Shown here in pieces: positions 601 through 39,600 of a stretch of DNA of 64,000 nucleotides; position 1 is the first letter of the stretch; each line of letters starts with the position of its first letter. The DNA comes from Verrucomicrobiota bacterium. GTDB taxonomy: Bacteria; Verrucomicrobiota; Verrucomicrobiia; Opitutales; Seribacteraceae. The notes under the pieces were generated by a model that was given only the letters and a program-made list of their open reading frames with translations, was not told the DNA's origin and searched no databases. The translations under genes and the position numbers were made by a program. The stretch covers positions 1-64,000 of the forward strand of contig JAOLZO010000010.1 of the NCBI GenBank assembly GCA_028343845.1, in the 5' to 3' direction.

Positions 601-607
601 TCGTGCA

Positions 608-645: not shown

Positions 646-3600
646 ATGTCCGTCCGTTCCCTTTGCCTTTGTATTTCGGTCCTTTGGATCTTGTTTGCGG
701 GTGTCTCCAAAGCGGTAGTCAAAGACGGTGACTTGCTCGTACGCTGGACGTTCGACGAAGGCAACGGAACCATTGCCTCCGATGCAACCGGAGACGGAGT
801 GGATGCACGGTTAAGCGCAAACACCTTATGGGGAGTGGGGAAATCGCGCGGGGGGCTGGATCTCAGTTCGGGAATCGGATACGCGGATGCCGGGCCTCAC
901 CCCAACTTGCAGGCCAGAATTGGTTTTTCCTATGCTTTATGGTTCAAGCCAAACGGGGTCCCTGCAGACTGGACCCAGATCCTGGCCAAAAGAGAAGGCG
1001 CCTATTCGCCCTTTTTCGTTCAGGTCGAAACCGGCGGATTGGGATTCCGGACCTATTTCAGGTTCATGACCAGCTATGTGGACAACGGAGTATACCCGAT
1101 CACTCCTGGGGCATGGCACTTTTTGGTCACTACCTACGACGGGAGCAAATTCAAAACCTACCTCAACGGCGTTCTTGCAGGGGCGGCAAACCAAACGAAT
1201 GCAGTCACGGTCGATAACGGTGAACTCGGTATAGGCGCGGCGCCCGACGGCAGTAACGTCTTCAATGGTTGGATCGATGACGTCAGGCTTTACGACACGA
1301 CATTAACGGCGGAAGACGTCGATCTGTCCTACAACGACGGGTTCGGCGATTTCGGGCCTGTGGTTGACTTCAACGTCACGAGGGCCAGTAACGTCTTGCC
1401 CATCCCTGCCTCCGTCACCTTCAAGGACGCATCGGGCAACCCGGTCGACGTTTCGGGTTTCGCCCTGGACGACCTCACCATCCAAGGTGGAGTCGCCGGC
1501 AACCTGAACGCGGTAAACGGATCCACCTACACCTTTGATCTGAATGCGACCAGAGACCCGCAGCGGATCTTTCTGACCGTCAATGCCGGAGCAGTTCAGG
1601 ACGTCGCAAACTCCGATTACAGCCAAAAGAACACCGCCGTGGTGACCTATAATGACAAAGTCACTCGGTCGGCAGACTTGGTAGGATGGTGGACTTTCGA
1701 TGAACTCAACGCATCCCTGGTCCCGGACCAATCGGGGGGAGAGGCCTTTGCCACTCTCGAGGGAGGAGCGGCGCTCAATACTTCCACTCAAAAATTCGGC
1801 GCCGGAGCATTGGCTTTGGATGGGATCGACGACTGGGCGGAGGTTTCCTCCGTTGGAATGCTTCCGAGCAAAATCACCCGGTTTGATGATCTGGAAGGCT
1901 GGTGGCCCCTGGATGGCAATGCCTCCGACATGTCCGGAAATTCCAGGGACGGAACGATCTCCGGGCAAAGCGAATGGGTCGGAGGAAGGATGGGCCAGGC
2001 GTTCAAACTTACCGGAAACGATCACATCGTGGCGACCGGATACAAGGGAATTTCAGGTACTTCTGCCCGTACGCTCTCGCTTTGGTTCAAGACGCTTGAA
2101 AGTGGCTGGGGCAACGGGTCTCTTATCTATTGGGGTAACAACTCACGGGGACAAAGATGGTGGCTGCGACTAAACGGCAACGACTTGAGGATAGATTTCA
2201 ACGGGGCGGTCCGAAACACAACCGAGTACAAGCTCAATGACGGACTTTGGCATAACGTCATAACCGTGCTTCCCGAGGGAGGGAACGACCGTTCCTCCCC
2301 GATTTTCTACGTAGATGGACAGAAGACCACGGTCAATGGACAGTGGGGTGGCCAAAATCAATTGAGTACCGGAAACGTGACCGATTTCGCCATTGGCAAA
2401 CGTTGGAACAATGCCCAGCGTTTCAGGGGAAGCATTGACGACGTCCGTCTCTACTCGATTGCCTTTACCGACTTTGAGGTGGAAATGCTTTACCGCGAAT
2501 CGGAGGGCTCGCCCTTGGACGTAGGCGAGAACAGTTATTCGATTTCCGTTTGGGCCAAACCAACCACTCTGGCTCCTGTTCAAGAGTACGACTTTGCAAC
2601 CGCTTGGTATGAAGGAGGTGGTGGTGAGTACATGCAAGTCCGCTTGGGTCAAGGCGCAATCGGTCAGGGTGATTACAACTCCATGACCATTTTCGATCCC
2701 AGCGCCCCCTTGCAAGCCGCCATGCTTTCAGGAACTGTAACCGAACGACTTTTCGACGGATCTTTCAACGACAACCAGTTGGATCCGATCGACACCGGAT
2801 CAGGCTTTCTCACCCGTAATGACCATGTCTACGAAGACACTGCTTTTGCAATCCCCATAAACTTCAACGGTGCCGCGGTAAACGCAAGATCGGGCGGACT
2901 AACCGGAACGGACCAAATAGGTGGACTTTGGTTTGGGAAGCTGCGCATAGGCGGTGCCGGACTCATCAAGTCTGGTTTCGTCACTTTCGGGACCAGAAGC
3001 GATGACGGGAGCGTATTTTGGCTCGATCTGGATCAGGATGGTTCCTTTTCCACTTCGGGATCCAAGGGTAGCGAATTAATCGTAAACAACAAGGGAGGAC
3101 ATGGGCAAAGAAATCGTGTCGGCACCGCCTATCTAGGATATAAGGCCCCCCTTCTGACCCGAACAGGTCTGTCTGAGAACAAGGGAGTCGCAATCGGAGC
3201 CGAAGGGTTCAGCATGGCTTCGCACGCCACGGCGTCCGGAAGCATAATGGGCTCGTCAAGCCTCGCCATGACAGCCGGCGAATGGTCTCATTTGGCCTCC
3301 GTCGTGGATCGCGAGAATGGAAGCATGCGCCATTATGCGAACGGAATCCTGGTTGCGGAGGAGTTTTTCCAGCCCGGACTGGCCGGAGAAAAAACGCTGG
3401 GAGACTGGTTCTTCGGAGGGATGCCCCTGCTCGACCGGTTCGAAGGAATGCTTGATGATGCCCGCGTCTACTCCGTGGCACTGAGCGATCAGGAAATTGC
3501 CAGGATTTACAACGGTGGAGAGGGAGACATGGGCTTGGTCGGCGTCTTTTCGGCTCCGGCAATCAGCTCAGCCGCTTCCATCCCGGTAACCCTTCAATTC

Positions 3601-6600: not shown

Positions 6601-9600
6601 GGTTCGATTAGTGAGATCAACGCCACCGGTACGGGAAGCTATCTCTTGTCGATCACCCCGGACGCATCCACCCGTTCCGCGAACCTTACCCTTCCTTCAG
6701 CTAGTTTGCAAGATGACTCAGGCAGGAACGTCGAAGGTTTTCGTTATGAATTCAAAGCCCATGAGCGGGTCTACCGGGATGCCGACTTGCTCAGTCGCTG
6801 GAGCTTTGAAGAAACCAACGGAACCAAGGTGAGGGACTTGAACGTCGGTCGCAATGACGGCTTTTTGGTCGGCGAGGCTCAATTGGGAACAGGCAGATTC
6901 GGAAATGGTTTGGTCTTGGATGGTTCGGGCGATTACCTGGACATTCCGAGCTTCAGAGGTTTGTATCAAGACGGAAACCTAACTTTTGCCGCGTGGATCA
7001 AGCTTACTAATTTGGGTTTCAGCAGCAATACGGATGATTCGGCTGTTTTTTCATCCAATGGGAACGATCAAAACACCGCCCTGCTTTGGTACAACGTAAA
7101 TACCATGGGAACAGGAAACCGCAGCTTCACCTTTAATTTGGGTGCTACGGGAACGGGTCTCAACCGCTTGGATGGATCGGACGGTTCCGCAAAGCAAGGA
7201 AAATGGCAACACTTGGTTGCCGTGATGAAAGACGTGGAGCGCTTTCTTTACGTAGATGGAAAATTAGTAGGCTATATGCCTCTTTCCGGCTTGGAAACCT
7301 TGCATGTCGAAGGAAACGGCGCCCGTATCGGAAGTTGGAGCAATGATTCGAACTATGATTTTTCCGGAGTCCTCGACGAAGTGCGGATTTATCGCCAAGC
7401 CTTTGCCCAGGCTGACGTTGACGTTCTTTACGGTGAGGGATTTGGAGACTTGGGTGTAATCCCCATTCTTTCCGTCGCATCCGGCAATTCGGCAGCTACG
7501 ATCCAAGGCAAGATTGATTTCTACAAATTCGGAATCCCTCAATCCGTGACCGGGCTGACCCTGTCGGACCTGAATGTCACCGGGGGGATTGCATCGAACT
7601 TGTCGGCCAATGGCTTGGGTTACCTTTTCGATCTCACGGCCAATACGCATCCAGCTCAATTGACCGTGAGCATCGCCAAGGGAGCGGCTCAGGCCGGTTC
7701 CACGCCAACCTCCGAAACCGTCTACTCCTTCATGCAGCATCCTACCATTACCGGTCAGGAAGATCTCATACTTTGGTATCTTTTCGAAAACAAGAATAAC
7801 TCCATGATCGACGATTTCTCTGGAAATGAGAACGACGGGCTTGTGTCAACCAACCAAACGCCTGGTATCCGGGGGTCCGAAGTCGTCGGGTGGTGGAAGT
7901 TTGACGAACAAAGCGGAAACTCGGTCCTGGACTCATCAGGAAATGGTCTGGATGGAGTAAAGACTGGTTCTGGCTCTTTTTCCGCTGGAAAATTCGGGAA
8001 TGCATTATCTTTCGGCGGTAATGGGGACAAAGTCACCATCTCGCATGACCCCAAGCTCGATTTGGCAAACTACACGGTTTCAATCTGGCTTAACTCCGTG
8101 AAAAGCAACGAAGCATGGGTTGGGGTTTTTGGCCGACCTGGCCGCCATTACAACTTTTGGGCAGGTAACTCCAATCAGGACAATTGGCTCATTCACCACA
8201 GGTTCAAGTGGGGTGGCAACTGGAATCAAGGCGCACCAGACGCCAGTCCCTTCCCTCACGGCGCATGGACTCACGTTGCGTTAACCAACGACGCAACCAC
8301 GGCCGCCACCTACGTAAACGGCGTGCTCAAGACTTCAGGCGGATCGGGAGCTCTCGAATATGATCCCAGCGATCTCTATGTAGGCGCCACGCCAGACAAT
8401 GGCAACGGAGCATGGTTCGAGGGGCAGATCGATGACGTCCGCCTATACGGAGTAGCCCTCGACGCCTCCGAGGTATCTGATCTTTACGGCTCGGGGAGTG
8501 GAGATTTCCACTTGATATCCACCCCACCCGAAAGCGGCTCCCTTGTGCCTGGAAAATTCAGCAAATCCCTCGCCCTTGAACCCAACGAGTATATGACGGC
8601 GGACGGAGGGAAATTACCCCTCTCGACCGAACTGACCCTCTCTCTCTGGTCCAAGATAAAGGATGATGATTTTGGGGTGGTAGCAAGTGCCGGACAGTTT
8701 CGCTTGGAATACCACGACGACAACACCATCAGAGGCTATGTCCGGATCGGTAACAATTGGCGCGAAGTGGGTTCCCGCTCGATACTCGGCCAATGGGCTC
8801 ATTACGCCTTGACCTATAATGGCGCTGAACTTGCCTTGTTTACCAACGGAGTCAAAACGGCCACGCTCACAACTTCCGGAACCCTTTACGCAAGTAATGA
8901 TCTGTTGTATTTAGGCCAGGGAACCAAGCTCGAAGTAGATGACTTCCGCATTTATTCCAAGGGGCTCGACGATTCCGAAGTTCTCCGCCTATTCGGACAA
9001 GCAACTGGTGACTTGGGGCTCAGACCCCTGATCAGCGGAACATCCCCTTTTGTCAGCAACCCGTCTCCCCAACTGACGACCTTGTTCATGGAGGGCAATC
9101 AAACCGTTTATGCCAGTGGATTGATTTCCTCGGAAATCAATGCCAGCGGTGCAAGCGTTCAGTCCTTTGCCGACAATGCCTCGGTGAATTACACCTTCGA
9201 GCTGAACGCTTCGTCCAATCCCTCGATGATCCGGACGGAAATCCCCTTCGATTCGATCACCAAAGACGGAAACCGTAGCCAAGCCGGGGCCTTCGAGTTT
9301 CATCACCGGATTGTCACTTCGGTCGAGAATGATCTTCTTGCATGGTACACGATGGATGATTTCAACGGGACTAGGGTCATGGACTCCTCCGGACGCCAAA
9401 GGCATGCCCGATACGTTGGCACGGATGCCACAACACCTGGCGGAACCATTACGGGATCGACTTCCCTGGCAGCCTATCCCGTGACCAATGCCTTTGATGA
9501 CGTTGCGGACAATCAAATTGGCAGGTGGCTGGCCAACCGGGCTACCCCTTCGTCAACCACCACCAACATCCACGTTACCTACGACTTCCAGACCTCAACT

Positions 9601-12600
9601 GATATCCGTAGCTACCGGATCGTTGCCCAACATTACGAAACCGTCAACCGTTCCCCCAAGAGCTGGACCCTCAGCGGGTCGAACGACAACTTGAATTGGA
9701 ACACACTGGACGCGGAAGGCAATCAAACAGGTTGGGCGATATGGGAAAGCAGGAGTTATGACGTCAGTTCTCCCGGATCTTACCGCTATTACAAAATCGA
9801 TTTCACCGAGGCAACGGGGCCCAACTCCTATCTGGGAATCGCCGAAATCGAACTTAATCCAAACTACGCGCTTGCTGCCGGAAAATCCGGAAACGCCATC
9901 AATTTGGACAATGATTACCTCCAGCTTCCTTTCCGGATTGATCAAGATGGAACGGGCAACGGGATGAGCTTCTCGGCTTGGCTCAAGCCCGATCAGGTCC
10001 AAGGTGGATTAGTGGACAACGAGCGAATGATCTTTTCCACGGACAACGGTGGCTGGGACTGGTCCCTTTCATTCCGGTTGGGCTCTTTGTCCGCATGGGA
10101 TGGAGCAGCCAGGGTGGAGTCTCTCTTTCAAGCGTTCCCGAGACAATGGTATCACGTGGTCGGCGTATTCGACCCTTCGCAAGCCCGGACCACTCTCTAC
10201 TTGAATGGCGAATCCACCACATTGGATTCCATCGGACTGGATGGCAACTCGGATTTGGTTCGCGTTGGACGGGGGTATGGGGACCGTACTTTTGATGGTT
10301 TGATTGACGACGTCCGCATTTGGGGCCGACCCCTTTCAACCAGTGAGGTTACCGAACTATGGGGCAATGGAATGGGAGATTTGGGTCCGCGAGCCCAATT
10401 CGATTTCGAAAGTCCGACTTTCGGGCAGACCGTGCAGGCTAGGATTTCCTTCAATCAGGCGATCTCCGACTTCAACGCATCGCAAGACCTTCAACTTACG
10501 GGTATGACCCTCGTGAGTTCAACTCCCCTTGCCGGCTCGGGCAACACCAAGTACGAACTTGTCTTCGCCCCCACCTCACTGTCTCCGGGAACACTCGCTC
10601 TGAAATTGCGTGATAACGCGATTACCGATTCTTTCGGGATGACCAATTCCGAGGTCGCTACCTCCATAGAATTCCGTCCGCACCGCATTCGCGAAGGAGA
10701 CCTCAGTCTTTGGTGGGAGCTGAACGAGGGAACGGGAACCCTCGCCGTGGATTCCGCAGGTGGGGACTTCAACGGAACGGGATCCCCAGCCTGGGCCTCG
10801 CCCGGGAAGTTCGGAGCCTCAAGCATAGGGTTTGACGGGACAAATGGAAAATCCATCGTCTCCACAGGTCTGTCCGAAGACAAAATGGCCGTGACGCTTT
10901 CCTTCTGGGTATTCCCCGAAAGTTCTGACTTTCATCTTTTCAGCCTGACCGGGAACGCGCCGGCAATGGCTATCTCCTTGCGCAATCAGCGCCCGGTGTT
11001 CTCTCTCGAGGGACTGGGGCAGCAATCCCTGCCTGGAACAGAAGTCGACGAATTCTGGGCCAAAGGCTATCTCCCCCTCAATCAATGGTCTCATCTCGCC
11101 ATGACGTTCGATTTGAGTGAAAGAACGGTCAGGTTCTACATCAACGGCGTCCTAGACAACGAGTCCTCATTCTCAAGCGGCCAACTTTTCCCTTCGTCAC
11201 AAGCATTCCGCCTCGGACCTCAAGACGGTACGGATGCTTCGGCAACCTTGGGTAGAGTCGATGATTTCCGTGTTTACGGGGCCGCCCTTTCCTCTTTGGA
11301 AGTCGGTCGCCTCTTCGGAAATGCCTCCGGGGATTTTTATCAGCGTACGATTGAGGTCACCCAAGCCAATGGCTACCAACTACCGGAAAAGGTTACGGTC
11401 CGCTTCCTTCAGGATGGCTTCCCCGTTTCCGTGGATGGCTTTTACCTGGCTGACTATTCCCCTGTTACGAATGGATCAGGGACCGCCCCAAGCTTGATTG
11501 AGCCTGGAGTTTATCAGTTTGAACTGACTCCAACCAACGCAGCGGCTCCGGTTTCCATGAGCCTGACGATTAACGGAACTGCAATCAGCACGGCATTCGG
11601 AGAGTCCTTCGCTTCCGCTCCGGTCACGGTGCCCTACGACGTACAAATGCCGACCGTCACCTCCCCGACTCAATCCAGATGGGCCAAGGGCGTTCAAGGA
11701 AGCTTTCGAATCGAAGCAAGTTATGCATCCAGTATCAGTACTGGGGCCTTGCCTGCGGGGCTTGAATTCAATGCGACCACACTGACCATTTCAGGAACGC
11801 CCGAGGTTTCCGGATCCTCGTCCACAACCATCACCGCCACCAACCCGATGGGCAACGATCCGCAAAACCATCAATTCACAATCTACGACCCCACGAGTTT
11901 TGCGGCCAAGATGGAAATCGACCTAATTGGAGCAACTGCGGGCGAATCCCCCGACAACCTACCGGGGCTGATCGTTCAGCTTGATGCCAACTCGCTAACC
12001 GAAGCAAACGGTTCAGCGCTCTCCTCTTGGCCTGATTCTTCGGGTGGCGGACATGCCTTGGATCAGGCTCGTGGCATTCCCTCCGTTACCACAAGCCAGG
12101 CATTGGGTGGGAAGAAAGTCGTATCCTTTGACGGATTCTCTCAATTGTACTCAACCTATGACTTCGGTTCATCCTTAACCGAGTATACGGTCTTGGCCCT
12201 TGCCCGACACACGGGCGAATCGAACGAAACCATCGTTGGTTCGGTCGGTTCCGATTGGGTATTCGGTTGGGGGAACGGAAGTTCTTCCTATTGGAAAATG
12301 GGGAATACCGTCGCTCAGTCCGTACCCGCGGATCAGTCCTGGCACCTGCTCGCAGGAACCTTCGATTCCGCAGGAAACATGATTCTTTGGCGCGACGGTG
12401 TGAAAGTAGCCGAGCAGACCGCAGTCACTAGCATACACTCGGTCCCGAAAAGACTGGCTTTGGGCGGATCCGATACCAATGCTAATTTTTCCAATTCCGA
12501 AGTAGCGGAGGTTTTGGTTTTCAACCGGGTTCTCAATAGCTCGGAATTTTCCGCCATGCAGGAATACCTACGTGTAAAATGGCAAGGCGGCGCTATATCG

Positions 12601-15600
12601 GACTTCCCTCTTTTGGTTCGCTTGGGAACGGTTTCCCACCCTGACTTTTCCCTGACTTCCTTTGCCGATCAGGCAAACGGCGGAGATCTTCGTTTCTTCG
12701 ATCAGCAAAACCGCGAACTAGTTTACGAAATCGACGAATGGAATGCTTCGGGAGAATCCACCGTTTGGGTTCAGACCAAAGAACTGAGCCCTAATTCGAA
12801 GATTCTAGCCTATTGGGGGAACGCTTCGGACGTGACCCCACCTGCCTATCGTTCCGACGGATCGCTTTGGTCTGGGTATGACGGAGTCTGGCACTTGGAT
12901 GACGCTCTTGATTCCTCGGTAAACTCAAGGACAGCAACGGCCAATGGCGGCGCAGTCCCGGGCTCGCCCGCAACCGTGGGCAAAGGCCTCACCCTGGATG
13001 GCACCGATGATTACCTGAACATCGGTGGTTATGGCGGTATTTCCGGCTCAGGGGCACGCTCCGTTTCCCTTTGGCTCAAATCCAATCAATCCAGCAGCGG
13101 CTTGGCGGGTTGGGGAGCGGTTGGAAACCTGTGGAACTTGTCCTGGAATAGCCAAGGTCCATTCGTCTCGACGGATAATGGTGGAGGAAAACGTCAGGGA
13201 GCGTTCAATTTGGGAGACGACCAATGGCACCACCTTACCCTTTCTTTTCCTGGCTCGGGCAGCGACTTAAACACAACGCGGGTTTTCGTCGACGGGAAGC
13301 TGGTTGATTCTCCTGCATCTTCTGTCTCAGGCTTGGTAAATACGCAAGGAGGAGGAAATCTTGCCATCGGGGCCTTGCACGACGGCACTTCCAAAATGAC
13401 AGGCATTCTTGATGAGGTACGCGTTTCATCGGTTTTCCGTGGACACGCCTGGGCAAGGCATTCCTATGAGAACCAAAAACCGGGGTCCAATTACCTCCAA
13501 TACGATTTGCAATACCTCTTGGCTCCCGTTTTACCCGCAGACCTCAACCTGACCGTAGTCGTTGGTCAATCGATGAACTACCAAGTTCAAAGCGATCCGC
13601 CAGCCACCTTATACGCTTATACCGGATCGTTGCCCCCGAGCTTGTCCTTTAACGCGGCTACCGGCGTAATTTCAGGCACACCTTCCGGGAGCCCCGGGCA
13701 ATTCGTACTTTCCCTTACCGCTTCCAATCCCAAGGGTAGCTCAACCACGACCTTGACAATCGAATCCAAAGGAGCGGTTGAAGCTCCGGTTGTTGCCATT
13801 GGCTCGATCCTTGAGGTGGGAGGCAGAAGCGCCACCCTTCAGGGACAACTTGTCGATTCAGGAGGGGTTGCCAATTCCGTGACCCTCTATTACGGCGATA
13901 CCGATGGCATCGAAACCCCAGGCGACTGGAATCACACCCTATCCCTCGGAACCTTCGATCAAGGCCCCATAAACGCAGGATTGAGCGGATTGAACAGTGG
14001 GCAGACTTATTACTACCGTTTTGCCTCGAATAACTCCGCAGGCACGGACTGGTCCGGTCCGGGAACCTTTGCCACCCTTTCCTTTGACCAGGGCACTTTG
14101 CGCTTTGACACCGGTTCCGATGAGACGGGCGATTCAGCGGGCTTGTTTTGGAACAAGGGAACGGGAGAAATAAAGGTCATGGATGCAAACTTGAGCACCG
14201 AGAACTATCTCGCCCCGGACGGAACGGCTTGGATGCTCACCAAGGCAAGCTTCCATTTCGGATCGGACTTTTATCTCGGACCAAACTTGGACAAGGTAGT
14301 CTTGGAGGGCGTAAATTCACTCTCCATATCAAGCGATGGGAACGTCACTTTGGCAAAGAGCATTACGGGATCCCCTTCACCTGCTTCCCCCCACGTACCG
14401 AATGGATCGTTGCTGGATGGTTATGATGCCTATTATGGTGATGACCCGGGCAAAGGACACAGATTGGGCCGCGGACGGCTAGGTGGATTCGGAGGCGGAC
14501 AGGGTCCGGGCAAAGGACATAGTCTCGGAACAAATAGCTCAGGCGGACTCTCTGGTGGTGGTGGATCCTTCGCGGGTGAAGGCGGGCCCGGGGCTTCCGG
14601 ACCAGCAGGGATTCGATACGGATCGGCAGAACTTGGATTGCTTGTAGGAGGTTCGGGCGGAGGCTTGGGCAACTTGGGCGAAGCTGCTGCGGGCGGAGGC
14701 GCTTTGGAAATCATCTCCGCAGGCAAAATCCTGATCAAGGATGGAATCGAAATCTCGATGAATGGGGGTGCGGTAATCGTCAACCCGAATCAAGGCGCCT
14801 ATTTTTCCGGTGGAGCTGGATCGGGCGGAGCGATCAGACTGGTTGCGAACAGTATCGTGAACAAGGGAATTTTGGAAACCCGCGGTGGGGATGCGTCCGG
14901 CATGGACAGCCGTGAAACCGGCGTCCGTTTCCTCTCCGATGCAGGCGGTGCAGGTGGAGGTGGACGCGTAGCCTTTCTTGCCGATGGGTCGATTGAAATG
15001 GGGACGGTGATCGTAGATGGCGGAGTTGCCAATGGGGATGGAATGGCCGGTATGATAGGAAGTGTTTTCTCGGGACCCCGCTCCCCTACCCCCGCAGTCG
15101 ACCTGAACCTCACCTCAGGCACTTTGGTCTTCGATACGGCCGGAGCCTGGACTCATACCTCGGGATTAAAGGGAAGAGGTACGGTGCAAAGATCGATCTT
15201 TTCCGAAAACGGTCTGAGTTACGGCTATGGGATTTGCACCTTCAATTTCAATGATTTTACACTTGGCGCCGGCGTTTCCATCGTAGTTCGCGGAAGCAAC
15301 TCCTTACGTTTCCAAATCGATGGTAACGCAACCATAGCAACCGATATCCAAGCGGACGGCCAAACCGGATTGCAAGGCATTTACTCTGGGTTACCCGGAG
15401 CCGGAGGCTGGTCTTCAGGCCGGGCTCTCAACGATACCGAGAACAATGGAAACTTGCATCCGGCTTTGGACGGACAGGGCCCCGGTGGCGGACGAGGCTA
15501 TGAAAAAACCAAGTCCAACGGAGGAGGAAGCTACGGAGGAGCAGGTTCCGGGGGATTGAATCTCGGCATTCCCGGCTTAACCTACGGGGATGAGAAAATC

Positions 15601-18600
15601 ACTCACCTCATCGGCGGATCGGGGGGTGGACACGCAAAAACCGGATCCGGAAATTCGGGCGGAGGTGGCGGAGCCATCGGTTTTGCAGTAGCCGGTACAT
15701 TCAGGTTGGAAGCAAACGGTACGATTTCAGTTTCCGGAGGGAAAGGCCAGTTCGAGCAAGATTCATCCGGGGCTGGTGGTTCCGGAGGTTCGATCAAGAT
15801 CGAAGCCGCCAGCATTCTCAACTCGGGTAAGATCACGGCCGTGGGTGGAGATGCCTACGGCTTGGGCGGACCGGGTGGAGGCGGACGGATTTCCCTCGTG
15901 ACCAGTGGTTCCCTCATGGAGGGAGACGTAAACGCATCCGGAGGGCGCTCACTGCTCTCCGTAACGGGAACCCATCGCTCTTCCGATTTGGTCGGCCATT
16001 GGACGTTCGATGAGAATTCCTCGGTTGCAATTGCAAGCGATTCAACTGCCAACAACCTTCATGCAACCATCGGGGGCAACCCTCAACGCTTGCCTGGAGT
16101 TCGGGACGGAGCCTTCTATTTTGACGGAAACGACGACCGGGTCTTCCTTCCCTCCGATCCAAAGTTGGCATTGGCCCAATACACCGTGTCCTTTTGGATC
16201 TACCCCGAGCGCAACAACGAGGGATGGACGGGGCTTTTCGGTCGTGGCAACCCAAGAAATTACGCAATTTGGCTTGGAAACTCGAATCACGTCAGTTCTC
16301 CCTTTGTTCACCACAGGTTCATGGAGGGTGCAGACACAAACCAAGGGGCGCCCAATCATACTCTTCCGGGATGGAACCAATGGTATCATGTCGTGTGCTC
16401 CAACGGCGGACTCGGGTCGGTTGCCCGGACTTACGTGAACGGGAGCTATTTCGAAGGGAATGCAGTAAGGGAAAAGCCCATTTTAGAGGAATTGGCAATC
16501 AACTCGTCTTCAGCGCCCTTGAATATCGGAGTCGATCCTGAAGCCGCTGCTTCCGACAGAGCATATTTCCTTGGCAGAATGGATGACGTCCGCCTGTACA
16601 ACGTTCCGCTGGGAATCGAAGACGTCAAGATCATCTACGTCGGAGAAAACAACTTGGGGTCAGCAGGTGCCAACGGTTTGAACGGAACCGTAAACAAACT
16701 CACCGTACCGGCGCTTCCTGCCATTTCGAACCTCTCGCTCACTTATGGCCAAAAAATAGTGGGAACGGATTTGGGCGAACAATCAGGGTTGACCTACTCG
16801 GTCAGCAACCTGCCTCCCGGCTTATCCAACCGCCAGGGCTTTCTTCCGACCGAGTTGCCGGGGCTTCTTGCCTGGTATGCTGCTGACCGGAACGGGAGCT
16901 TCGATTTTTATGCCGACCGCAATTACGAGCGTAACGATACCGTCGCCTCGAACGATCTCGTACTCGGCCTTGAGTTCAATGAAGGAAACGGAACCGTCGC
17001 CTTTGACTCCACGGGCAATGGAAACCACGCCAACCTGCTTAACCCAGCCCAATGGTCTCCGGGAAAGTCCGGCGGAGGGATAGCCTTCGACGGAGACAAC
17101 GACGGGGTTTTCTTCTCCAAGGTCGGTTTTATGAACCAGCCCAGCGCATTCACGCTTTCGCTTTGGTTCAACCGGACCAGTGACAAAGTCGGAATGTCAA
17201 CCAATCATGGCGTGGACAACGTGCTGGTCGCCCAAAGCAGCGCCAATTTCAACGACAACCTCGAGATCGGAACGTCAGGATCCGAGATCGAAGTTTATTT
17301 GGACTCGGGAGACGGAGCCGAGGATGCCTTCCATACGACTACCGGGGCTGGAATCTCAAACGGAGCATGGAATCACCTGACCGTTACCTATGGAACAGGA
17401 TTCAAGCTCTACCTAAACGGAGCCCTCCTTCTTGACCGCCCGGAATTCACAGGGCCACTCGATTCTTCCCAAGATTCCCCTCTTTCTCTCGGGATCGCCC
17501 GGGTATTCTCTGACCAATGGGGAGATTTCGAAGGGGGAATGGATGATTTGCGCATTTACAACCGCGAATTGAACGCAACCGAAGTCGGTCTGCTATTCGG
17601 TGGTGGCAACGGAGATTTTTCATCGACTATTTATACCAGTACGGAAAAAGGCCGAATCCGGTCTTGGAACGATCTATCCGGTAACGGAAGAGATGCCGAG
17701 GCTCCCTTTGAGACGGCTCCCTTGAAATCTTTCGATCAAGTGACCGGTTCGGAAATGGCCTTTTTCGATTATGGGAAGACACTCTCCATCAGTGATTCCA
17801 GAACCATGCCAATGACCGTCTATCTGGTCGGGCGGGAAACCGGGGTAAGCATGCCCGACAGGGAATTATTCACCTTCGCGGGCTGGCGAGTCGCAAACAG
17901 TGGAAACTGGGCCCTCAGAAGATGGAACGACAACAACCCCAGCATCCTTTCGAATGCCCCTTCGAGCTTGCATTCCGTCGTCGGTTGGAAATTCGACCGT
18001 TATGGATACGAGCTAAGGGTGAATGGTCAGAGCATGGGAGCAAGCTCCTCAGCCAACTGGCATCCGAGCGCGCTCTTTGACCGGATCAATGAGGACAGTT
18101 CCTTAGTCTTGGGTGAATTGATACTCCTCCCCCGTGTCCTTGGTCAGGACGAGGTCCATAAGATCGAAGGCTATCTTGCCCATCATTGGGGTCTCGCAAA
18201 CAGCCTTCCTGTTGGACATGCCTACAAGACCGGTATCCCCGAAGGACCCGAAGGGCTCGTTATCGAAGGGCAGCCTACCGTTGCAGGAACGCATACCGTC
18301 ACGGTAACCGCAAGCAACCAACTTGGCACGGACAGCGCGAGCTTTGATATCATCGTCAGCGCAATATCCCCCCAAGTCCAGACAAAGGGCGCAACCCAAG
18401 TCGGGTCAACCAGCGCCCTTTTGAACGCCAACCTTCTGGAGGCAGGCGGCGAAGCAACCTCAACCTCCTTCGAATGGGGACTTAACTCGGGCAGCCTGGA
18501 TCAAAATACTTCGATTTCCCTGCAATCCTCATCCGGTGAATTTTCCACCATGGTGAACGGATTGACACCTGGAGCCACTTACTACTTCCGGGCAAAGGCA

Positions 18601-24600: not shown

Positions 24601-27600
24601 CCGGCTGACGGGAACCTTTCGGGCATCCCATCGGTAGCAGGTACGTTCCCTGCAGTCATGAGAGCCCTCTACTCAGATGGTCAAAATGCAGAGCAGAATT
24701 ACGATTTCACGGTTCTTCCCGCCAAGCCGGAAATCAGTATCGGAGTCCCTTATGTGATTGATTCGGGAAGTATCCTGGTTCCGTTTGAGGTCCTCACCAC
24801 CGGCGGGATTGATCCGGACGTTTACGTCCTTGCCGATACGGTTGATCACGGAACGAACTTCTACTCGTGGGCCTATCGGGTACATGCCGGCAAGCTTGGG
24901 TTGGGAACAGGATCCACCATCGTAAGCGGACTTGCTCCCGATCAGAGGTATTACGTCCGTCTCTTTGCGGAAAACGTCTCGGGCTTTGACTGGACGGGGA
25001 AGGAATCATCCCCCCGGACGCAACCTGAGTCGACGCACCTGCCCTTCGGTCTCGCCCTTTGGTTTGACGGTGACGACATCACGGGGGATCCCAATAGCAA
25101 ACCTTCCGATGGGTTTGCCCTTACTCAGTGGTTCGACAAGTCGGGCAAGGGAAGGCACATGGCAAACGTCTTGGGAGATCCCGTCATAAGATTGGATGGT
25201 TTCGGAGGGCGTGCAGTCGTGGACTTTGACGGGAATGACCGGATGAATACCGATTACGACATGCGTGCCGGCCTGGAGTTGCAAAACTGGAGAAACGGCG
25301 GTTACACGGTTTTCGGAGTGTCCCGATACAAGGGTGGCGACAATGAACGGGTCATTACCTCTATCGGAACGAATTGGCTTTTGGGGCATCACGGAAATTG
25401 GATAGGCAGGTACTATTTCAACGGTTGGGTTGACCAGGGCTTCGCATCCGATACCAATTTCCACATCTTCGAAACCGTCCATCAGGGAAGAAGTTTAAGT
25501 AATGATCCATCCGCTACCGTCTGGACGGATGGCATCGAAGGCTCGTATCGCAACGGCGGGAAGCAGCGTTCGAACAATTGGAATTTCTTCCCTTCCAAAA
25601 TCGCGTTCGGAGCCTACCAAAACTCGGCCACACACGAATCATCCAAGGCTCAGGTCGCAGAGTTCCTTTTCTTTGCCGGACAGATGCTTGAGGACGATCG
25701 GCTCAAGATGGAGGGTTATCTATCTCACAAGTGGGGAATCCCCCTGCCCTCCAACCACCCATGGTACCTGAACAAGCCGACCTATGGAGAAGTGATCGTT
25801 ACGGGAACCACCCCCGTGATCGACACGAACCGTACGGAAGGACCGACTGTGGCCAACAGAACGCCGGCCAATTTGAAAAAGACTTCCGCAACCTTGACCG
25901 GAAGACTAGTGGATGCAGGACTCGGCACTCTCTACACGGGAGTCGGACAATCGGACTACGACCCCAGAGACGTATCCGGATTAAGACTTTGGCTGGATGC
26001 TTCCGACATTGACGGCGACGGGGTAACCGGACCCGCCCCCACTCCTACCGAAATCCCCTGGGATTTATCTACCCTCAATCCGATTCTTTGGCTCGATGCC
26101 AACCACTCCTCGGCACCGGGAGCGAGCTGGACAGACCGTTCGGCAAGTGGAAACGATGCGACAAGGAACGGTGGCCCCTACGTCACGACCCAAGCCTACA
26201 ATGATCTTCCTGTCATGACCTACGACGGGGTCAACGGACACTACCACAGTTTCAACCCGATCAGCGACATCCGTACGGTCTTCTGGGTGGTCAACCGCAA
26301 TCCCGGAACCTACTCCTTCCTGCTCGGGCATACGGGTAGTTATAATTTTCACACCAACAACAACCGATTCTGGCACAACAATTATGCCCATGCGAATGTC
26401 AAAAACGGTTCGCTTTGGGTAAACGGCGCCCTCACGGACGGTCTTAACCAAAACGTACCTTCCGATCTATCCGTGATTTCACTGAGGACGGCCGGAAACG
26501 TTTCTGCAAACACTTTCTCCAGAGATCGAAACCAAAACAACCGTTATTGGAGCGGCGAATTGGGTGAATTGATCATCTTCAATTACGTCATGAGCGACGA
26601 ACAGGTCCGAAAGGTCGAAGGCTACTTGGCTCACAGGTGGGGCCTCGAAGGCGATCTTCCCGGCGGGCATCCCTACGCCAGCTTGGATCCCAGAACCGAA
26701 ACTCTCACGATCCACGCACAGGTTGCAAAGGTCGAGGACAAGTCCGATCAAGATAACGACGCTACCCAAGCCAATACCGATCAGCAACCCGGACTTGTCG
26801 TGGAGGGTCAAAACTCTCTCCACCTCCTGAATTTCGACGGAATGAACGATCACCTGTCCTTTGACCGGATCGAACCCATACGCACCGCCTTGATGGTCGT
26901 AAAAAGGGAAGCCGGCAACACCGGATACATCCTGGGCGACAACACCCGTTACGATTTCCGTTCGGGCAATGGAAAGATATGGTCCAACGTATGGACGAAC
27001 CCGGACGTATACAATGGGTTGCTCCATGTCGACGGAAACTTCAGGGACGGTCTGAACAGCGATCTAACGAACGACGTATTTTCCATCTTGGCCGTCCGTA
27101 CGAAGGGTTCGACCATTGCAGACAGTTTCTCGAAGGACGGTGGCAGCGGAAACACCTGGAAAGGCGATCTGGCCGAGTTGCTTGTCTACAATGAACCTTT
27201 GTCCGATGAGGATATTCGCCGGATCGAAGGATACCTTGCCCATAAATGGGGCATTGGCACATTGGTCGGTTCCCACCCCTACAAGCTTTCTCCTCCGAAA
27301 AGAAGCAGGCCTACGGCGCAAACCAAGATTTTCTGGGGAGGAACCGACGGCGGGACCAACCCAGCCGCCTGGGATAACGTAATCGACACCGGTGAAGCCT
27401 ATGCCGGTTTAAGGAAGTTAACTTCCGGGGTAAACGTCCTTTCGGACCCCTTGCCTACCGAGTCCGGCAGTTCCTTCCCCGCCTCCGCCTTGCTTGACGG
27501 ACAACTGCCGTTGGACGGATGGCGTTCCAGCTGGACTGCCTGGTACAAGAAAAACCCCCTTCTGACCTTCAACTTGGGCAAGAAGAGAATAATGGACAAG

Positions 27601-30600: not shown

Positions 30601-33600
30601 GGAAGTCTGGTCGGGGGAACCACCTGGACAGGCGGCCGGTTCGGACAAGCTCTGAACTTCAACGGTACGGATGGATATGTCGCCACGCAAGCAACGGGTG
30701 AATTGCTCGGAATTGACGGTAAGGAAGCTCGGACGATTTCCTTCTGGGTCAAGGCCGACAACAACAACCCGGGAAGCCAGCCTGGCTTTTATGGATACGG
30801 AGACACGACCTGCCCGAACGGACTGAATAAGTACTGGGGCATGCGAAACATCAAGGACGGTGGCTACACCGAACTGATCAGTCAGCATTGGTGCTGGGAC
30901 CCAAGGTCAAGGCATGGCACGGACATCCGGACCGACTGGGTACACGTCGCCCATAATTACTCGGGGGCGGCCGTGACGATCTTTATCAACGGAAGCTTGG
31001 TATCGAATTGGACCAGATCTCAAATCAGCACGGGCAATGGACAGGCGTTCCAGTTCGGAAGATGGCGCAATGACGGCAATGCCTATTTCGGGGGAATGCT
31101 TGATGACATGAGGGTTTACGACGACATCCTTTCCGAATCCGAGATTCAGCAGATCTTTCAAGGAAACGACCTTACAACCGAGATGGTCCATATCCAGTTC
31201 AAAATGGATGCCACACAGGAGCCTACTTCCTACGGAACCACTGCCCTGCCATCTGGTCTGTCCCTGGACATGTATACCGGAGAAGTCACGGGCAAGCCTT
31301 TGGAGGTCGGTATCTTCGACGTCAACCTCACGGCAACCAATCTGGCCGGTGTCGGAACCAAGCCAATCCGGTTGATCATCGATCCGACCGCTCCGACTCT
31401 GACCACCTCCAACCCCAAAGACATTTCCTCCACCTCGGTCAGGCTTTCCGGCAAGGTGGAAAATGACGGCGGAGCCCAACCTTCCCTTTCCTTCTTCTGG
31501 GGCGATAACGATGGCGGGGAAAACCAGCAGGTCGACTTGAACGACTCAAGTCTCTGGGATTACAGGATAGACCTGAACGGCACCCACTCGAACGGCCTTG
31601 TCTCCAGCTTCTTAAACGGCTTACAGAAAAACACCCAGTATTACTACCGCTTGTTCGGAGGAAACTCCGTAAGCTCGGCGGTATGGAGCCTACCCTCACA
31701 GGAAGGCTTGTCCTCCTGGTGGACTTTTGACGAAACAAGTGGAACCGAAGCACTTGATTCAGTCGGTATCCGACATGCCACGCTCGTTGGCGTAACCGAG
31801 TCCGACCGCGTTTTCGGACGGGTTAACCGAGCCGTCAAACTGGGTGGATCGGGTGAACACGTCACGGTCAAGGGCTTCAAGGGCATAGGCGGAGAAAAGC
31901 CTCGATCCCTGGCCATGTGGATCAAGGCCTCTTCTTCATCCACAAGCGGAACGCTCGCATCCTGGGGGGCTCCAGGAAATGGATTGGGATGGAACTTCTC
32001 CATTAAAGCAGGAAGGCTCAGCATTGACGTCGGAGGAGGTGAGTTGACCGGAAGCACAATTGTGAACGATGACGCATGGCACCACGTGGCCTTGGTCTTT
32101 CCCGCGATCGGAAGCGGAGTCGAGGATATCGTTCTGTATGTCGACGGCGCAGTCGAAAACAATCCGATCAACGTCGCGCAAGCGATCAACACCGGAAACC
32201 AGTTCGACTTCAAGATCGGCACGGATGAAAACGGAAACCATTTCAATGGCCAAATTGATGAGGTCAGGCTTTATGAGAAAGATTTGTCCTCCAACGAGGC
32301 TGCGAGCATTTACTTGAATGGAACGATGCGTTTCCAAACCTCCTCGTTCTCCCTTCCTCCGGTCGTCGAAGTTGCAGGCATCACCCCGTCGGGTGGAGGA
32401 ACCGCCATTGTGACTGGAAATCTGGTCGCCTTTGACTCGACTCAGCCCAGCTTGAAGATCTATTGGGGAAATGAGGACGGAGGATTCGATCCGTTGAAAT
32501 GGGACGGTTCGGTTGACGTTGCCGGAGGAGCCGCTCAAGGGATGGGCGAGTTCAATGCAACGGTAAGCGGATTGCTTCCGGGAGAGACCTACTATTTCAG
32601 GGCTTTTGCCTCCAGTGCGGATGGTTCGGACTGGTCCAACGGCGACCCCCAGGTTCGAGAGTCGCTGGTTTCATACCTCAGGTTCGATGAGAGCAACGGA
32701 ACGCATGCCTTTGACTCATCTACATGGGAGCATAACGCAAGTGTCCAAGCCAACGATCCGAATGCAACCCGGCCCGATGGTTTTGCAGGAAGGGCTCTGC
32801 CCTTTGACGGAAAGGACGATTGGCTCAACCTGGATGCCAACACAACCGGATTTTTGGCTCAATCCTTTGATGGCCGAAGCGTAAGTTTCCGCCTGCGTCC
32901 GGTTTCAAAGGTCTACTCCGGTCCGGCTTTCACCCGATACGAACAACTTGCGGCCTACTACCCAATGGACGAAGGGACGGGATCGATCGTCGGGGATCTC
33001 GGAGTAGAGAAGCTGGATGGCGACTTGTTCGGATCACCCGCCTGGACATCCGCCCAGTTCGGACAGGGCTTGGATCTTGACGGCAGCAACGACATTGGCG
33101 ACCTCAGCGCCCAAGGCGCCCTCAGGGATCTGCACAAGAACTCCTACACGATCTCCCTTTGGGTCAACTCGGATACAGACAGCGCCGGCAGCGACTACAC
33201 CCAAGGCCAGCTCTATGCCCACGGTTTCATGGAGGCCATCCAAAACGAATACTTCACCGACATTGAAAATATGTTCGCTCTTACCCCAAGCGGGACCAGC
33301 ACTCTGACAAACGGCCCAGGAAACCGGGGGTTGGATTTCAATAACGACAACGATTATAGGAATGCAGGGATTGGCATAACTCGGAACAACAACTACCTGA
33401 GCCTTTTCAACGGAGTATTCCATGCCAAAGTGAGCGGGCCCTATGGGTGGGAAATTCGAGGAAACGATGATCGGGGAACAATCTGGATCGACTTGGATCA
33501 GGACGGCAAATTCGAAACGACCGGAAACAAGGGCAATGAGCAGATGGTTTATCAGCCCCAATGCTGCGGAACCCAATCGACCGTAATTAATTTGGATGCC

Positions 33601-36600
33601 GGCTACTATGCAATCGCCATAGCCCATGGTGAAGGCGGTGGAGGCTCCAATCAGGAGGCGTATTTCTATACCCCAGCGGGAGGAGGAGCCACTACGCTCA
33701 CCAAGATCAAGCCGACCGACTACCCCGACCTATTCCTCACCTCCAACGAGAGAACGCTTTTGAAGCGCGGGCCAATGAGACTTTCCATGGATGGTAACAA
33801 CACGATTTACTATACCCATGGAAATTTGGCCAACCAGGTCACCGTCGACTCAAATCAATCTCTCGGAATGGGGAATTGGACCCACGTGGCCATCGTGGCC
33901 GATTACAACTCCTCTTCCCTTCGTTTTTACTTCAACGGGGTCAAGACGGACGAACAATTGCTACCGGAGGGTGACCCGGTTGATCTTTTGGCTACCGAAA
34001 AATGGCGACTCGGAGGAACAAACCAAGTATTCAGCGATTATTTCGACGGAAAAGTCGATGACTTGCGCTTCTACCAAACCGACCTGAACGGTTCGGAAAT
34101 CCTTGCAATCTATCAGGACGACTTGAGCTCTGCCGTTCCCGCAGGCTATCAGCAGCAGATTTTGTACGACGAAGGAACCTCTGCATCCGGTCTTACCATA
34201 GGCTTGGATTCGGGAATCCTGAAGGCCAAGATTGCCGAGGGGGTCGGATCCGTCGAATTGGCCGACGTCACGTCGATCAGTGATGATCAATGGCATCACG
34301 TAATCCTGACCTTCGGGGATTCCCCAAAAACGATGAAGTTATACGTCGACGGCTCTCTTAAAGCCGGTCCCGGCCTTCTTTTGGACTCCACGATTTCCCT
34401 TCATCAGGAAACGCCCTCCTTCGGAATGACCCAGGGCACCTCCCAATACCCTGCTTTCGGCTTTTTCAAGGGTCAGCTTGATGACCTTCGCATTTACGAC
34501 CGGGGACTCAGCGAGAGCGAGGTTCTGGAAGTTTTTGCCGGAGACGTCCCCAATGACGGTTTCATTGAGTTTCTTGGAATCGAGAAACCGGTTCTGGAAA
34601 CGAGAAATCCTCTCGAAGTCATGCCCACTCATGCAACCCTACGGGCGGAGATTTTCTCAATCGGCGGACTGGTTACGACTACGGAAACTGTGATCGATCG
34701 GTCTTTCAAACCAGATACCATTGAAGGAATGGCGGTTTGGTACTCCGCTCAAGACATGAATGGCGATTTGACCGATGACCTGGGCCAAGTGCTCGGCAAC
34801 GGCGCAACGGTAAGCGAATGGAAGGATGCCTCGGGGAACGGTCGGGACATGACGGGCATACAAGGAGATCCGACCTATTACATCTCAGCCCTCGAGGGCA
34901 AGCCGGTTGTCAGTTTTGACGGAAACGACATGATCTGGGGCTCCTCGAGCTTGGATTTCCTTACCAACACAGGTTACACCATGGTTGCCGTTGCGCGTTA
35001 TTCCGGAGACACCAAATCAAGAGTCATTAGCTCGCGAAACCGCAACTTCCTGTTCGGCTATCATGCCGGCTTGACCGGCAGATGGTATGCCGAAGGGTGG
35101 ATTTCCACAGCCGGTCCGACCGATACCGACTGGCACATGCACCTCGGGACGATCGAAGCAAAGGGAGGTAACCCCAGAGCATCCTTCTGGAGAGACGGAT
35201 ACTCCCTCTCCATAGGCTCGACCGGATCGAACAATAATAATTTCGCGCCGGGCATCCTTCAATTCGGCGGATACAGGACAGGCTGGGAAAGATCAACTTG
35301 CGAAATCGCCGAGGTCATGATCTACGATCGGGAGCTCAACCCGAGCGAACGGGCCGATCTCGAAGGCTATTTGGCTCACAAGTGGAGATCTCCGACCAAG
35401 TTGCTCTCTTCGGGGCATCCTCATTTCGCGGCCAATCCGTATGACGGAATAACCAAGACCACCGAAGTGGTAAGCACGGGTGGAGATCCTCCGATCCTGA
35501 AGATTTTCTGGGGAGACGATTGGGTCGAGAACAACTCGACCGACATAGATGAGAACAATGCATCCAAATGGGATAACGTGATTGTGCTCAACGATGGAAA
35601 CCCCGTTTCGCTCGGTGTTCATGAAACCGTCCTGCAAAACCTTACCCAAAACAGCCGATACTTCTACAGGGCTTATGCCGAGAACCTGGGCGGGGCGGCC
35701 TGGGCTCCCTCGATCAAGGCCTTTACCGCCAGCGACACCCGCTTTACCAAGCACACAATGGATGGCCTTCTCCTTTGGCTCGACGCAACCGATCCGGATG
35801 GTGACGGAGTCCGCAACGACTGGCTGAACGAGCAGAAGGTCAGTCTATGGGTAGATAAGTCGAAAAACGAGAAGAATGCGCTTCAATCGGTTCCCTCGGC
35901 TCAGCCAAGCTATGCAAAGTCCGTTTTTGAAGATCTTCCCGCCATGCGCTTCGCATCCGGGGAATCAATGAACATAGGAACCCTGACCCTAGGATCCACT
36001 CCAATGAGCGTCTTCATCGTTGCCCAAGGGGTTGGCGTAGCTATCGGGGCCAATGACGGATCCAGTGGATGGAGCTTGGATGCAAAGATGGGGACGCGCC
36101 TGGGTTCCTATCATCAGGAATCCAACATTCTTCAGCAAATCACACTTGGATACGATCCCAGAACCGGTTACGGCCAGTTGATCGGGGAAATCGGGGAAAT
36201 CATGGTTTTCGACCGCTACCTGGAAGCGGACGACCGGGAACGGATCGAGGGCTATCTTGCCCACAAGTGGGGGATCACGGAAGATCTCGCAGGAACCACC
36301 TTCAAGATCAAGGAAGGGTTGTCGCTGTACTTCCCCTTCGAGGAAACGAATGGCGGTACGATATTTGACTCATCCAAAGCCAAAAGAAATGCCTCCCTTG
36401 TCGATATTACCGATAGCGACCTTGCCGTTCCGGGGAAATTCAATTCCGGCATACAATTGGGAACCGGAGCTACCTCGTATATCGACATGGGAGCCAACCA
36501 GGTTCCGTTGCCAAGCGACTGGACCATTTCCACTTGGCTGGAGGCTCCTCTGGTAGAAACCGGGGTTGATTTCAGGCGTACTCTTACCGCCGGAGGCAAT

Positions 36601-39600
36601 GTCAGGCACGTCGTCTTCAAGAAGGGAGGGATTTCGGAGCTCGGGGTTTACGTATCGGGTGCCGTCGGGTTCAGAGGTTCCGGTGTCAACGGCAACTCAA
36701 TTAGCGCGGGCTGGCACCATTTGGCCGCCGTGGGCAAGAACGGCTTAACGGTCTTTTATTTGGACGGAAATGAAGTAGGCACCTCCAACTACCGGGCTGG
36801 CGCTGCAATTGACACGGTCGGTAACATTGCCTCCGCGTGGGAACGCTTTGCTGACAAGATTGATGATTTCCGGGTTTACGCCCGCCCCCTTTCATCCACT
36901 GAAATAACGACTCTTTACGGAAGCGGACTTGGTGATTTCGGTGGGCATCCCTATGATACGGAAGCTCCGACCTTTGATAACGTCCCGGTTATCAAGCTAC
37001 CCAACAATCCAATCGTACACTGGACCTTTGACGAACTAAACGGCACGACCATTGCCGATGCGTCAGGGATGGAAAACAATGGAAGCGTGGTCAACGCGAC
37101 CATTGCAAATCTCTATGATCATTCCGAACCGGGAAGGGATGGTACCGCTTTGCGTTTCGATGAGAATCAATCCGTCTTCCTTCCCAAAAGCGCCAACTTC
37201 ACCCTTACGGATAAATTCACCCTTTGCTTCTGGCTCAAGACCGATGACGTCAATTCCGTCGTGCTCAAGAGCGACCAAATGAAGGTCGAAGTCCAAAACG
37301 GGTTCATCTCTGCCGGAGTCTACCTGGGCAATTGGATTAATACCGATGAAATCCCGGTGACCTTGGGTGATTGGGTGCACTATACCCTGATGTGGGACGG
37401 TTCCAAAGTAAGGTTCTTTGTAAACGCAGGCGAAGCCGTCACACCGATAAGTGTTGCCAACGGTGTCCTGCAGGGAACGGGGGGCGATGACAACACCTAC
37501 CTGGGAGCGCATTCAAGTGGCGGGCACACCTTGTCCGGACTCATAGATGACTTGCGCATCTTTAATCAGTCCTTAAGCGAAAAAGAAATCCAGAGAGTCT
37601 TCGAGTTTGAAGCTTCTCCGCTTATCGCACGCTTTGGGGAGGAATACGAATACCAAATCGAGTCAATCAAGGGTCCGACCGAATACAACGCTACCGGACT
37701 GCCCGTGGGACTGGAGATCGACTCCAACACAGGCTTGATTTTCGGCGAAGCCAATCAAACGGGCACTTTCCCGGTATCGCTGAGAATTGCGAATTCTTCG
37801 GGGCAGGACACCACGGTCGTCAGCCTCGTGGTGCTCAAGGGCAGGCAAAGCGTAATCTTCGATCAAGAAATCGGGGTCATCGTATATGGGGATGCTCCGA
37901 TCGACCTTAACGTAACCGCGACCTCGGGGCTGCCCATTACTTTCGATCTGGTAGCTGGCACTGACTGCGTTGATATAAATGGTTCGATCATGACGATCAA
38001 GAAACCGGGCTCGGTCAGCCTTTTGGCTAGGCAAAACGGTGACCTGAATTGGATGGCAGCGGAACCTTTCCCCATGGATTTCCAAATCATGAAAAGGGAA
38101 CTGGTCGTTACCGCGCAAGATCAATTCAGGGCAACGACCGAAGCCAACCCGACCTTGACCTACTCGATTCAAGGATTGGTGAGCGGAGACCTTGAGAATG
38201 ATTTCAATCAATCCATTGCCATCTCAACCTCCGTTACCGATGGAAACGTCTCCGTGCCGACTCCATCCGGCATCTATCCGATCAGCTTGACCAATGCTTT
38301 ATCCGAGCTCTACTACTTCGTTTATCTGAATGGCAACCTCACGGTTTCGGACAAAAGCCTGCAAACGTTGGTTTTCGATCAGAACCTCAGTTCGGTCCGG
38401 GCGAATTTGCTCTCGGTCAACCTGACTGGATACTCAATTGACAAAGATGGAAATATGACGGGACTTCCCCTGCTCTACAAAGTGGAAGACGAAACCGTTG
38501 CCCGCATCAAGGTCACTCGCCAAGAAGATCTTCTCGCTCATTGGAAACTCGATGAGGAACTCTACACAAGCGCCACTGATTCCGAAGGCGCTTACCACGG
38601 AACTCTGGTCAACCTTGCAAATACGGAACCGACCAATTCATGGAAACCCGGACTATTCTCGAACGCCCTCGACTTAGGCGCCCCCGGAGGGAAGGTCGAA
38701 CTTGGCAGCGTTCCCGTTGAAGGAGCATTCACGCTCTCCATGTGGCTGAAGTCCCAAGACTCCAACGGAAGCGCTTCGACCATCCTGTCAAAAGACGAGC
38801 TGATGGCCATGAACGTCTTCAAGTTCGAGAAAGCGGCAAGCTCAGGCATCGCTTCATTCAGGTTCTTCCCGGATGGCAACTCCACTTCTTTGGATCTCAA
38901 CTCGAGCTCTCCCGTGATCGTCGACAACCAATGGGTTCACTTGGTCGTAAGCTATGATGGAAATGCAACGCTTACGATGTATGCGAATGCCGTACAAGTC
39001 GCGCAATCTGCCGGGGTTTCGATTTCCGGAATGCCCTTAAATCAGCGCTATTCCAATATGAAAGTCGGCTCATCGAGTAATCCGTACGATGGATTGATTG
39101 ATGATCTCAGGATATACCAAGCCGCATTGAGTCAGACGGACGTTTCCGATATTTACGGACAAGGAGGCGGAGACTTCAAGCAGATCGAACTCATTGGTGC
39201 CGGCACGACCATGATCACGGCAACCCAGGGCGGCGACGACGTTTTTGCTCAGGCCGTTCCTGCTCAAAATTATCTTAGCGTAATCAGGGTTCCGCAAAGC
39301 CTCAGCTTCGCTCCGATCCTCGACCATTCGGTCGGCGACTTCCCCTTCATGCTGGAAGCAAACTCAACCTCCGGGCTACCGGTTTCCTTCTCCACTTCCG
39401 ATCCCACAAGGGCTGTCGTTCATGGTTCTCAAGTCACCATCTATGGCCCTGGCGAAGTAACGATAACCGCCGTTCAAACCGGTGACGCCCGGTACGAGCC
39501 AGCCGCAACGTTGAGTCACTCGTTCACAATCGGGTTCGGCAATCTTTTCTCGGATTCAGCCGGAGGACTCAAGTTATGGCTGGATGCCAACGACGTGAAC

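Follow-up and report, generated by a model that had tools for sequence, protein, structure and literature searches.

How does a bacterium come to encode one protein of 13,632 amino acids (aa) in which domain after domain appears to stop in mid-fold and to resume only after another, complete domain has intervened? The question is raised by a stretch of 64,000 nucleotides (hereafter the window: positions 1 to 64,000 of contig JAOLZO010000010.1, assembly GCA_028343845.1) from an uncultured marine Verrucomicrobiota bacterium of the Seribacteraceae (order Opitutales), in which a single uninterrupted frame runs from an ATG at 646 to a stop at 41544 on the forward (+) strand, the strand of all parts of this gene given below. 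An earlier note on this DNA had counted about 21 intercalated domains in a gene placed at 1669-39300; the gene extends beyond both of these ends. We count about 22 inserts in 20 hosts (S1 to S20), of which about 14 have independent profile support, so that the earlier figure is borne out for the greater part, while about a third of the cases, in which the second host piece is one short strand, are unproven.

The giant protein has a hydrophobic N-terminal stretch that resembles a signal peptide, and is probably secreted and displayed on the surface. Its Pfam matches are to Laminin_G_3 (many), to He_PIG, Big_12, DUF2341, FN3-like and MBG families, to F5/8 type C (discoidin; two) and to a C-terminal TSP3 repeat, and its conserved C-terminal domain is common to sister giants. 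Orthologues were found in 18 genomes of the same genus, the named relatives being metagenome-assembled genomes of marine Opitutales/Opitutia. The frame is not an assembly artefact, because independent assemblies hold orthologues of similar length: three further genomes carry open reading frames of 13.4-14.8 thousand residues (13,423, 14,758 and 14,789 aa) with the same order, and two complete orthologues are longer than the window protein.

Nesting was assessed with module-family profiles built from contiguous (intact) copies only. In an excise-and-join test, which replaced an automatic split finder on non-overlapping hits that proved too conservative, the pieces flanking each claimed insert were scored alone, joined and in reversed order; DUF2341-LamG pairs (e.g. 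aa 7004-7306) were left out of the count. Complementary host halves, given below in model positions (m), were found for S1 and S12, each with two inserts, and for S2, S3, S5, S6, S7, S10, S13 and S16. The LamG host S1 (1666..3540; aa 341-965) consists of three pieces, 1666-1881, 2521-2568 and 3175-3540 (m1-59, m62-75, m123-214), which are separated by a LamG domain with a full-length profile match (1882..2511) and by a PA14-like domain with a partial one (2569..3174). S2 (7753-7848 and 8533-9021; aa 2370-2792) encloses a LamG domain at 7849..8532 (aa 2402-2629), and S3 (9322-9453 and 9844-10386, m1-36 and m35-214; aa 2893-3247) a discoidin domain at 9454..9843 (PF00754; aa 2937-3066). S5 (32659-32916 and 34159-34554, m1-70 and m122-211; aa 10672-11303) encloses the LamG domain S6 (32938..34140; aa 10765-11165), itself the host of a PA14 domain at 33244-33729. 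When joined, these four LamG hosts score 82 (S2), 104 (S3), 96 (S5) and 123 bits (S6) over essentially the full model, against 62, 83, 58 and 62 bits with their pieces in reversed order, and the joined match exceeds chance by far.

Hosts of other families are split as well, namely the FN3b, He_PIG and Ig-like hosts S7, S10, S12, S16 and S18. The three-piece FN3b host S12 (25840-25956, 27316-27420 and 27832-27963, m4-29, m35-63 and m61-99; aa 8399-9106; joined 63 bits) holds a discoidin domain (27421-27831) and a KWG domain within a KWG domain (25957..27315); the outer KWG, S13 (25957-26067 and 26698-27315; aa 8438-8890), reaches 163 bits over the full model when joined across the inner one (26068..26697; aa 8475-8684). 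Both behave as the LamG hosts do. The He_PIG host S7 (16708-16839 and 18244-18363, m1-40 and m47-79; aa 5355-5906) scores 41 bits when joined across a KWG domain (16840..18243, C part m17-218), which is itself the putative host S8 of a LamG domain (16951-17616). Two further FN3b hosts are S10 (19627-19743 and 20377-20637, m4-37 and m26-98), around a LamG at 19744-20376, and S16 (34579-34701 and 35446-35721, m3-31 and m22-93), around a KWG at 34702-35445; joining raises S16 to 26 bits from 8 for the N part alone. In model coordinates, the two FN3b pieces of S10 (19627-20637) and those of S16 (34579-35721) have about 10-12 positions in common, with GGVTQTISL before the insert and QTVTLGGEDPVITL after it as one example; this resembles a duplicated target strand on both sides, and overlap of this kind was seen at none of the other sites. 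The Ig-like host S18 (38308..39300; aa 12570-12882), around a LamG at 38527-39180, rises from 3 bits for its N part to 29. In the KWG host S17 (35743..36981), where a LamG (36304-36942) precedes the C-terminal HPY motif, joining adds 9.5 bits and the true continuation adds none.

Support is moderate for the LamG host S4 (23281..24426, m50-80 and m111-209), whose PA14 domain (23554-24036) is a full match of 231 bits, and weak for the FN3b host S14 (31381..32346), in which a LamG (31696-32328) lies before the last strand. Six nests are putative, their second piece being one short terminal strand that is below the reach of the profiles. These are S8; S9 (18355..19311), in which FN3b m3-94 is followed by a LamG (18640-19287) and a putative last strand, VQSFTTG; S11 (24715..25839), in which profile matches place a KWG (25024-25779) before the last FN3b strand; S15 (32347..34581; FN3b m2-100); S19 (11896..12915), with a KWG jelly roll (11950-12579) inside a DUF2341 domain that has a C part of m19-119 and a very short N strand; and S20 (15076..16650), a Gly-rich module followed by a LamG (15970-16650), where nesting is doubtful in the window. 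The KWG near aa 11700, formerly listed as nested, is in tandem with the preceding FN3. Nesting in the window goes at most four domains deep (FN3b > LamG > LamG > PA14), with the two inner steps supported by profiles and the outermost, S15, putative.

It is the orthologues that decide the matter. In whole-protein alignments of the orthologues from the 18 congeneric genomes, domain-sized presence and absence falls inside domains. The inner LamG of S2 occurs only here and in genome G020, and is absent in 14 of the 15 relatives that cover the site, in all of which the host LamG is continuous; the S3 discoidin domain is absent from the sister species G013 and G004, where the LamG is likewise continuous; and the inner KWG of S13 is absent from one relative, G012, which has an uninterrupted host KWG. 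These empty-site orthologues directly prove nesting at S2, S3 and S13, and uphold the earlier proposal that the order is split rather than tandem.

The reverse case, a host intact in the window and filled in relatives, was found at at least seven sites (near aa 360, 717, 1680, 2022, 3366, 5592 and 10505). Near aa 360, a KWG sits inside the LamG in G012, G022 and probably G019. Near aa 717, most relatives have an extra domain of about 180 aa inside the PA14-like domain of S1. At about window aa 719, G015 (L049) has a KWG directly inside the PA14-like domain, in the place taken by this other domain in most relatives; its KWG is 51% identical to one that G017 carries there beside the other domain. 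The site near aa 1680 forms a ladder, from an empty FN3a in the window, through FN3a[KWG] in G019 and G022, to FN3a[KWG[KWG]] in G012, G017 and G039, while near aa 2022 a KWG[KWG] is found inside FN3a in G013 only. Near aa 3366, KWG domains occupy different loops of the same LamG in two clades, and two separate insertions are therefore likely. Near aa 5592, G013 and G009 carry a further domain, unmatched by the module profiles, inside the LamG of S8; this domain of about 190 aa (L020-L022, L055-L057) also occurs in G017 near aa 8490, so that it is present at two nest sites in different species, with 52% identity. Near aa 10505, five relatives have a KWG inside the LamG of S14. An apparent insert in G022 near aa 833 was dropped, as it consisted of undetermined residues. 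On the gene tree, the insert confined to G013 (aa 2022) is best read as a gain, and the lack of discoidin in G013 and G004, like that of the extra PA14 domain in the window's clade, as a precise loss. S2 has no simple placement on the tree, since the window and G016, and G020 and G024, are sister pairs; the likeness of the empty site of G016 to the right-hand linker would, on a weak reading, point to a secondary loss.

Besides presence and absence, the inner modules themselves differ. The S2 inner cores of the window and G020 are not orthologous: they share only 28-32% identity between similar flanking linkers, in proteins that otherwise agree at about 71% of positions. With the S1 inner LamG of G013, at a different nest site, the G020 insert has 66% identity (32% with the window insert at its own site), against a background of 54% between these genomes; since the highest of 54 sliding windows reaches 69%, the excess is suggestive and not conclusive. 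In the clade of G013, G004, G015 and G008 the two halves of the S1 host look normal, but the alignment of its inner LamG with that of the window is poor, and by this comparison the module appears to have been replaced. The KWG[KWG] of G013 (aa 2022) matches that of G012 at another site (aa 1680) over 440 residues. Among 354 LamG and KWG copies, only about 3 clearly have their nearest counterpart at a different site, and most nests are therefore stable within the genus. The ratio of non-synonymous to synonymous substitution rates is low, about 0.04-0.06 wherever synonymous change falls short of saturation, and does not set nested modules apart from the remainder; inserts and hosts are thus both kept by selection. 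When the genome was searched for a donor of its youngest insert, the best paralogue was only 41% identical, so that this insert is no recent copy.

AlphaFold2 models of two nests, those of hosts S1 and S6, were built with 12 and 9 orthologues respectively and compared with solved structures by VIA-align; their mean predicted local distance difference test scores were 62.8 and 67.9. The S1 model has its best match in domain 4 of AbnA (5ho2), with 195 residues spanning 1..618, a Z-score of 23.2 and a root mean square deviation of 2.4; as the match spans 1..618, the outer LamG pieces are predicted to pack together across the two inserts. For S6, the match to one jelly roll takes in about 207 residues of the model between 201 and 603 and bridges the PA14 domain (Z about 21). 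For the four-domain nest, the structural comparison resolved the S6 host and not the outermost LamG and FN3b. In the models, then, the host halves of S1 and S6 each form one jelly roll across the inserts, in agreement with the earlier expectation that they are not separate complete domains. Clostridial neurotoxin binding domains stood among the many structural matches; they share the jelly-roll fold only, and no functional meaning attaches to them.

The explanation that we favour, and consider likely, is of one giant secreted beta-sandwich fibre, adhesin-like, that was built by repeated in-frame insertion of complete modules into loops. LamG, KWG, PA14-like and discoidin modules would have entered loops of FN3, Ig, He_PIG, DUF2341, LamG and KWG domains, in some cases loops of modules that had themselves been inserted earlier. 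Jelly-roll termini lie close together, and inserts would therefore be tolerated in loops and stick out sideways, each adding a ligand-binding site without lengthening the fibre; such lateral projection is modelled on the RTX adhesins and is suggested here by module content only. Since junction repeats are lacking and the base composition of inserts equals that of their flanks, we propose that turnover probably proceeds by illegitimate or ectopic in-frame recombination among the many LamG and KWG copies of this and the sister giant genes, and that selection then retains insertions in those loops where a compact domain with neighbouring ends does no harm. To judge from the module families, the protein probably serves to attach the cell to polysaccharide surfaces. 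Several points weigh against this explanation. Six to eight of the window cases depend on a single short strand; the AlphaFold2 models are of modest confidence, with shallow alignments, and the first PA14-like domain, in S1, is poorly modelled; a glycan-binding adhesin function is read from the LamG and discoidin Pfam matches and the PA14-like modules only; polarity, whether gain or precise loss, is ambiguous at several sites, S2 among them; and at 22 variable junctions no target-site duplication, microhomology or junction repeat was found above chance.

Three other explanations were weighed. The gene is repeat-rich and has LamG, FN3 and KWG copies in plain tandem order too, as would be expected of a tandem array of complete and decayed domains whose supposed halves are leftovers of unequal crossing-over rather than parts of one fold. 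This is most improbable for the protein as a whole: the fragments complement one another along the model and, once joined, reach the scores of full domains, the identical host is uninterrupted in congeners, purifying selection conserves both halves, and the predicted folds join them. Empty-site orthologues and join scores lead us to reject tandem or truncated repeats for most cases, the reading surviving for the six putative nests. Less improbable, if still doubtful, is that old composites such as LamG[PA14] or KWG[KWG] were copied as finished units, the independent insertions being far fewer than 20. Most nests are common to all orthologues, the PA14 domains of S4 and S6 lie at a similar place and are 48% identical, and the match of the whole KWG[KWG] between G013 and G012 is what such copying would produce; against it, host families and loop positions differ widely, and new events must have recurred, as the single-level ladders and the inserts confined to particular clades show. 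The LamG[PA14] composite of S6 was not found outside the genus at an E-value of 1e-15 among the class genomes sampled. An active, dedicated cassette-exchange system, in which a recombinase or retro-element drives fibre diversification, would explain the replaced inner LamG cores between conserved linkers at S2, the replacement at S1 in one clade and the occurrence of related modules at nest sites that differ from species to species. We regard it as improbable, given the rarity of ectopic cases, the want of junction repeats or of a shift in base composition, and the fact that neither recombinase nor reverse transcriptase was met beside the gene, no search having been aimed at them.

The habit of splitting extends beyond this gene. 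A second giant, of the upstream-neighbour type, in G018 (L069-L071; an open reading frame of 10,277 aa) has a Gly-rich module interrupted by a complete KWG (m2-124 before and m121-261 after) and an FN3b split around a KWG, and G275 (L066/L077), which belongs to a different family of the class, has a KWG-type jelly roll inside DUF2341, followed by a LamG. The G018 giant shares its module families and a related C-terminus with the window protein; it is a different gene, and its architecture is not orthologous. Gene order is kept in part, with a giant gene of related C-terminus upstream and a gene for about 640-690 residues downstream. In the window, 1-270 is the C-terminal end of an upstream gene, cut by the contig start, whose terminal domain (ending FLRVRIKTK) is of the kind found in the giant genes; the downstream gene (44182-46254; 691 aa) is conserved, adjoins the giant gene in several relatives, and has zero matches in Pfam or NCBIfam.

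Among known systems, the RTX adhesins AhLap of Aeromonas hydrophila, FrhA of Vibrio cholerae and MpIBP of Marinomonas primoryensis have split domains, sugar-binding modules (PA14, CBM) budding from an interrupted Ig-like domain and projecting from the fibre axis, and AhLap also nests an insertion in a vWFA domain inside a beta-roll (PMC12077191, PMC10865825). The window protein is likewise a giant with putative ligand-binding modules in split Ig-like domains, its architecture being read from sequence. It differs in its probable N-terminal signal peptide, in having no evident type I secretion signal (no separate test was made for one), and in hosts that include LamG, KWG, He_PIG and DUF2341. 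Pfam scans over its full length gave no match to an RTX repeat family, and by these scans it is no RTX adhesin. Along its 5,047 residues AhLap carries three ligand-binding domains of this kind, compared with about 22 inserts in 13,632 residues here. In cyanobacterial RNA polymerase, the Si3 region of RpoC2 shows recursive domain insertion to six levels (PMC13114784). The two proteins share small beta modules nested domain-in-domain in bifurcating hosts; RpoC2, however, is an intracellular enzyme of about 12 domains, whereas the window protein, four domains deep, has more inserts per protein and a greater turnover between congeners. Domain insertion of the A1-B-A2 type affects 20% of multidomain proteins in ECOD (48,551 events), mostly at a single level and with inserts usually smaller than their hosts (median 115 against 199 residues; PMC13114784). 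The elementary arrangement is the same here: halves join at about 14 of 22 inserts, hosts are uninterrupted in homologues, and the host folds across the insert in the S1 and S6 models; yet jelly rolls of about 210 residues occupy FN3 and Ig domains of about 90. Insertion being widespread, and six levels deep in RpoC2, there is no novelty in the principle or in the depth; the earlier note, which had called both density and depth unusual, was right on density and overstated depth. What is new is the density of inserts in one protein and, above all, their gain, loss and exchange within a genus. We found nothing relevant in the literature on giant LamG proteins in Verrucomicrobia or Opitutales.

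The entry of one domain into another is usually inferred from distant homologues, while here one gene, followed through its orthologues in about 18 species of a genus, supplies matched alleles that are empty, filled once or filled twice at ten or more sites, together with replaced inner modules, so that the rate, preferred loops, polarity and biophysics of insertion become directly testable. The finding suggests a route by which giant bacterial fibres may gain binding sites sideways rather than lengthwise. We hold it rather unlikely that the giant fibre genes of the genus have a favoured process by which complete jelly-roll cassettes are copied or swapped in frame into loops of existing domains, across sites and species; were this so, nesting would be a system, itself open to evolution, for diversifying the ligands that the cell surface can bind.

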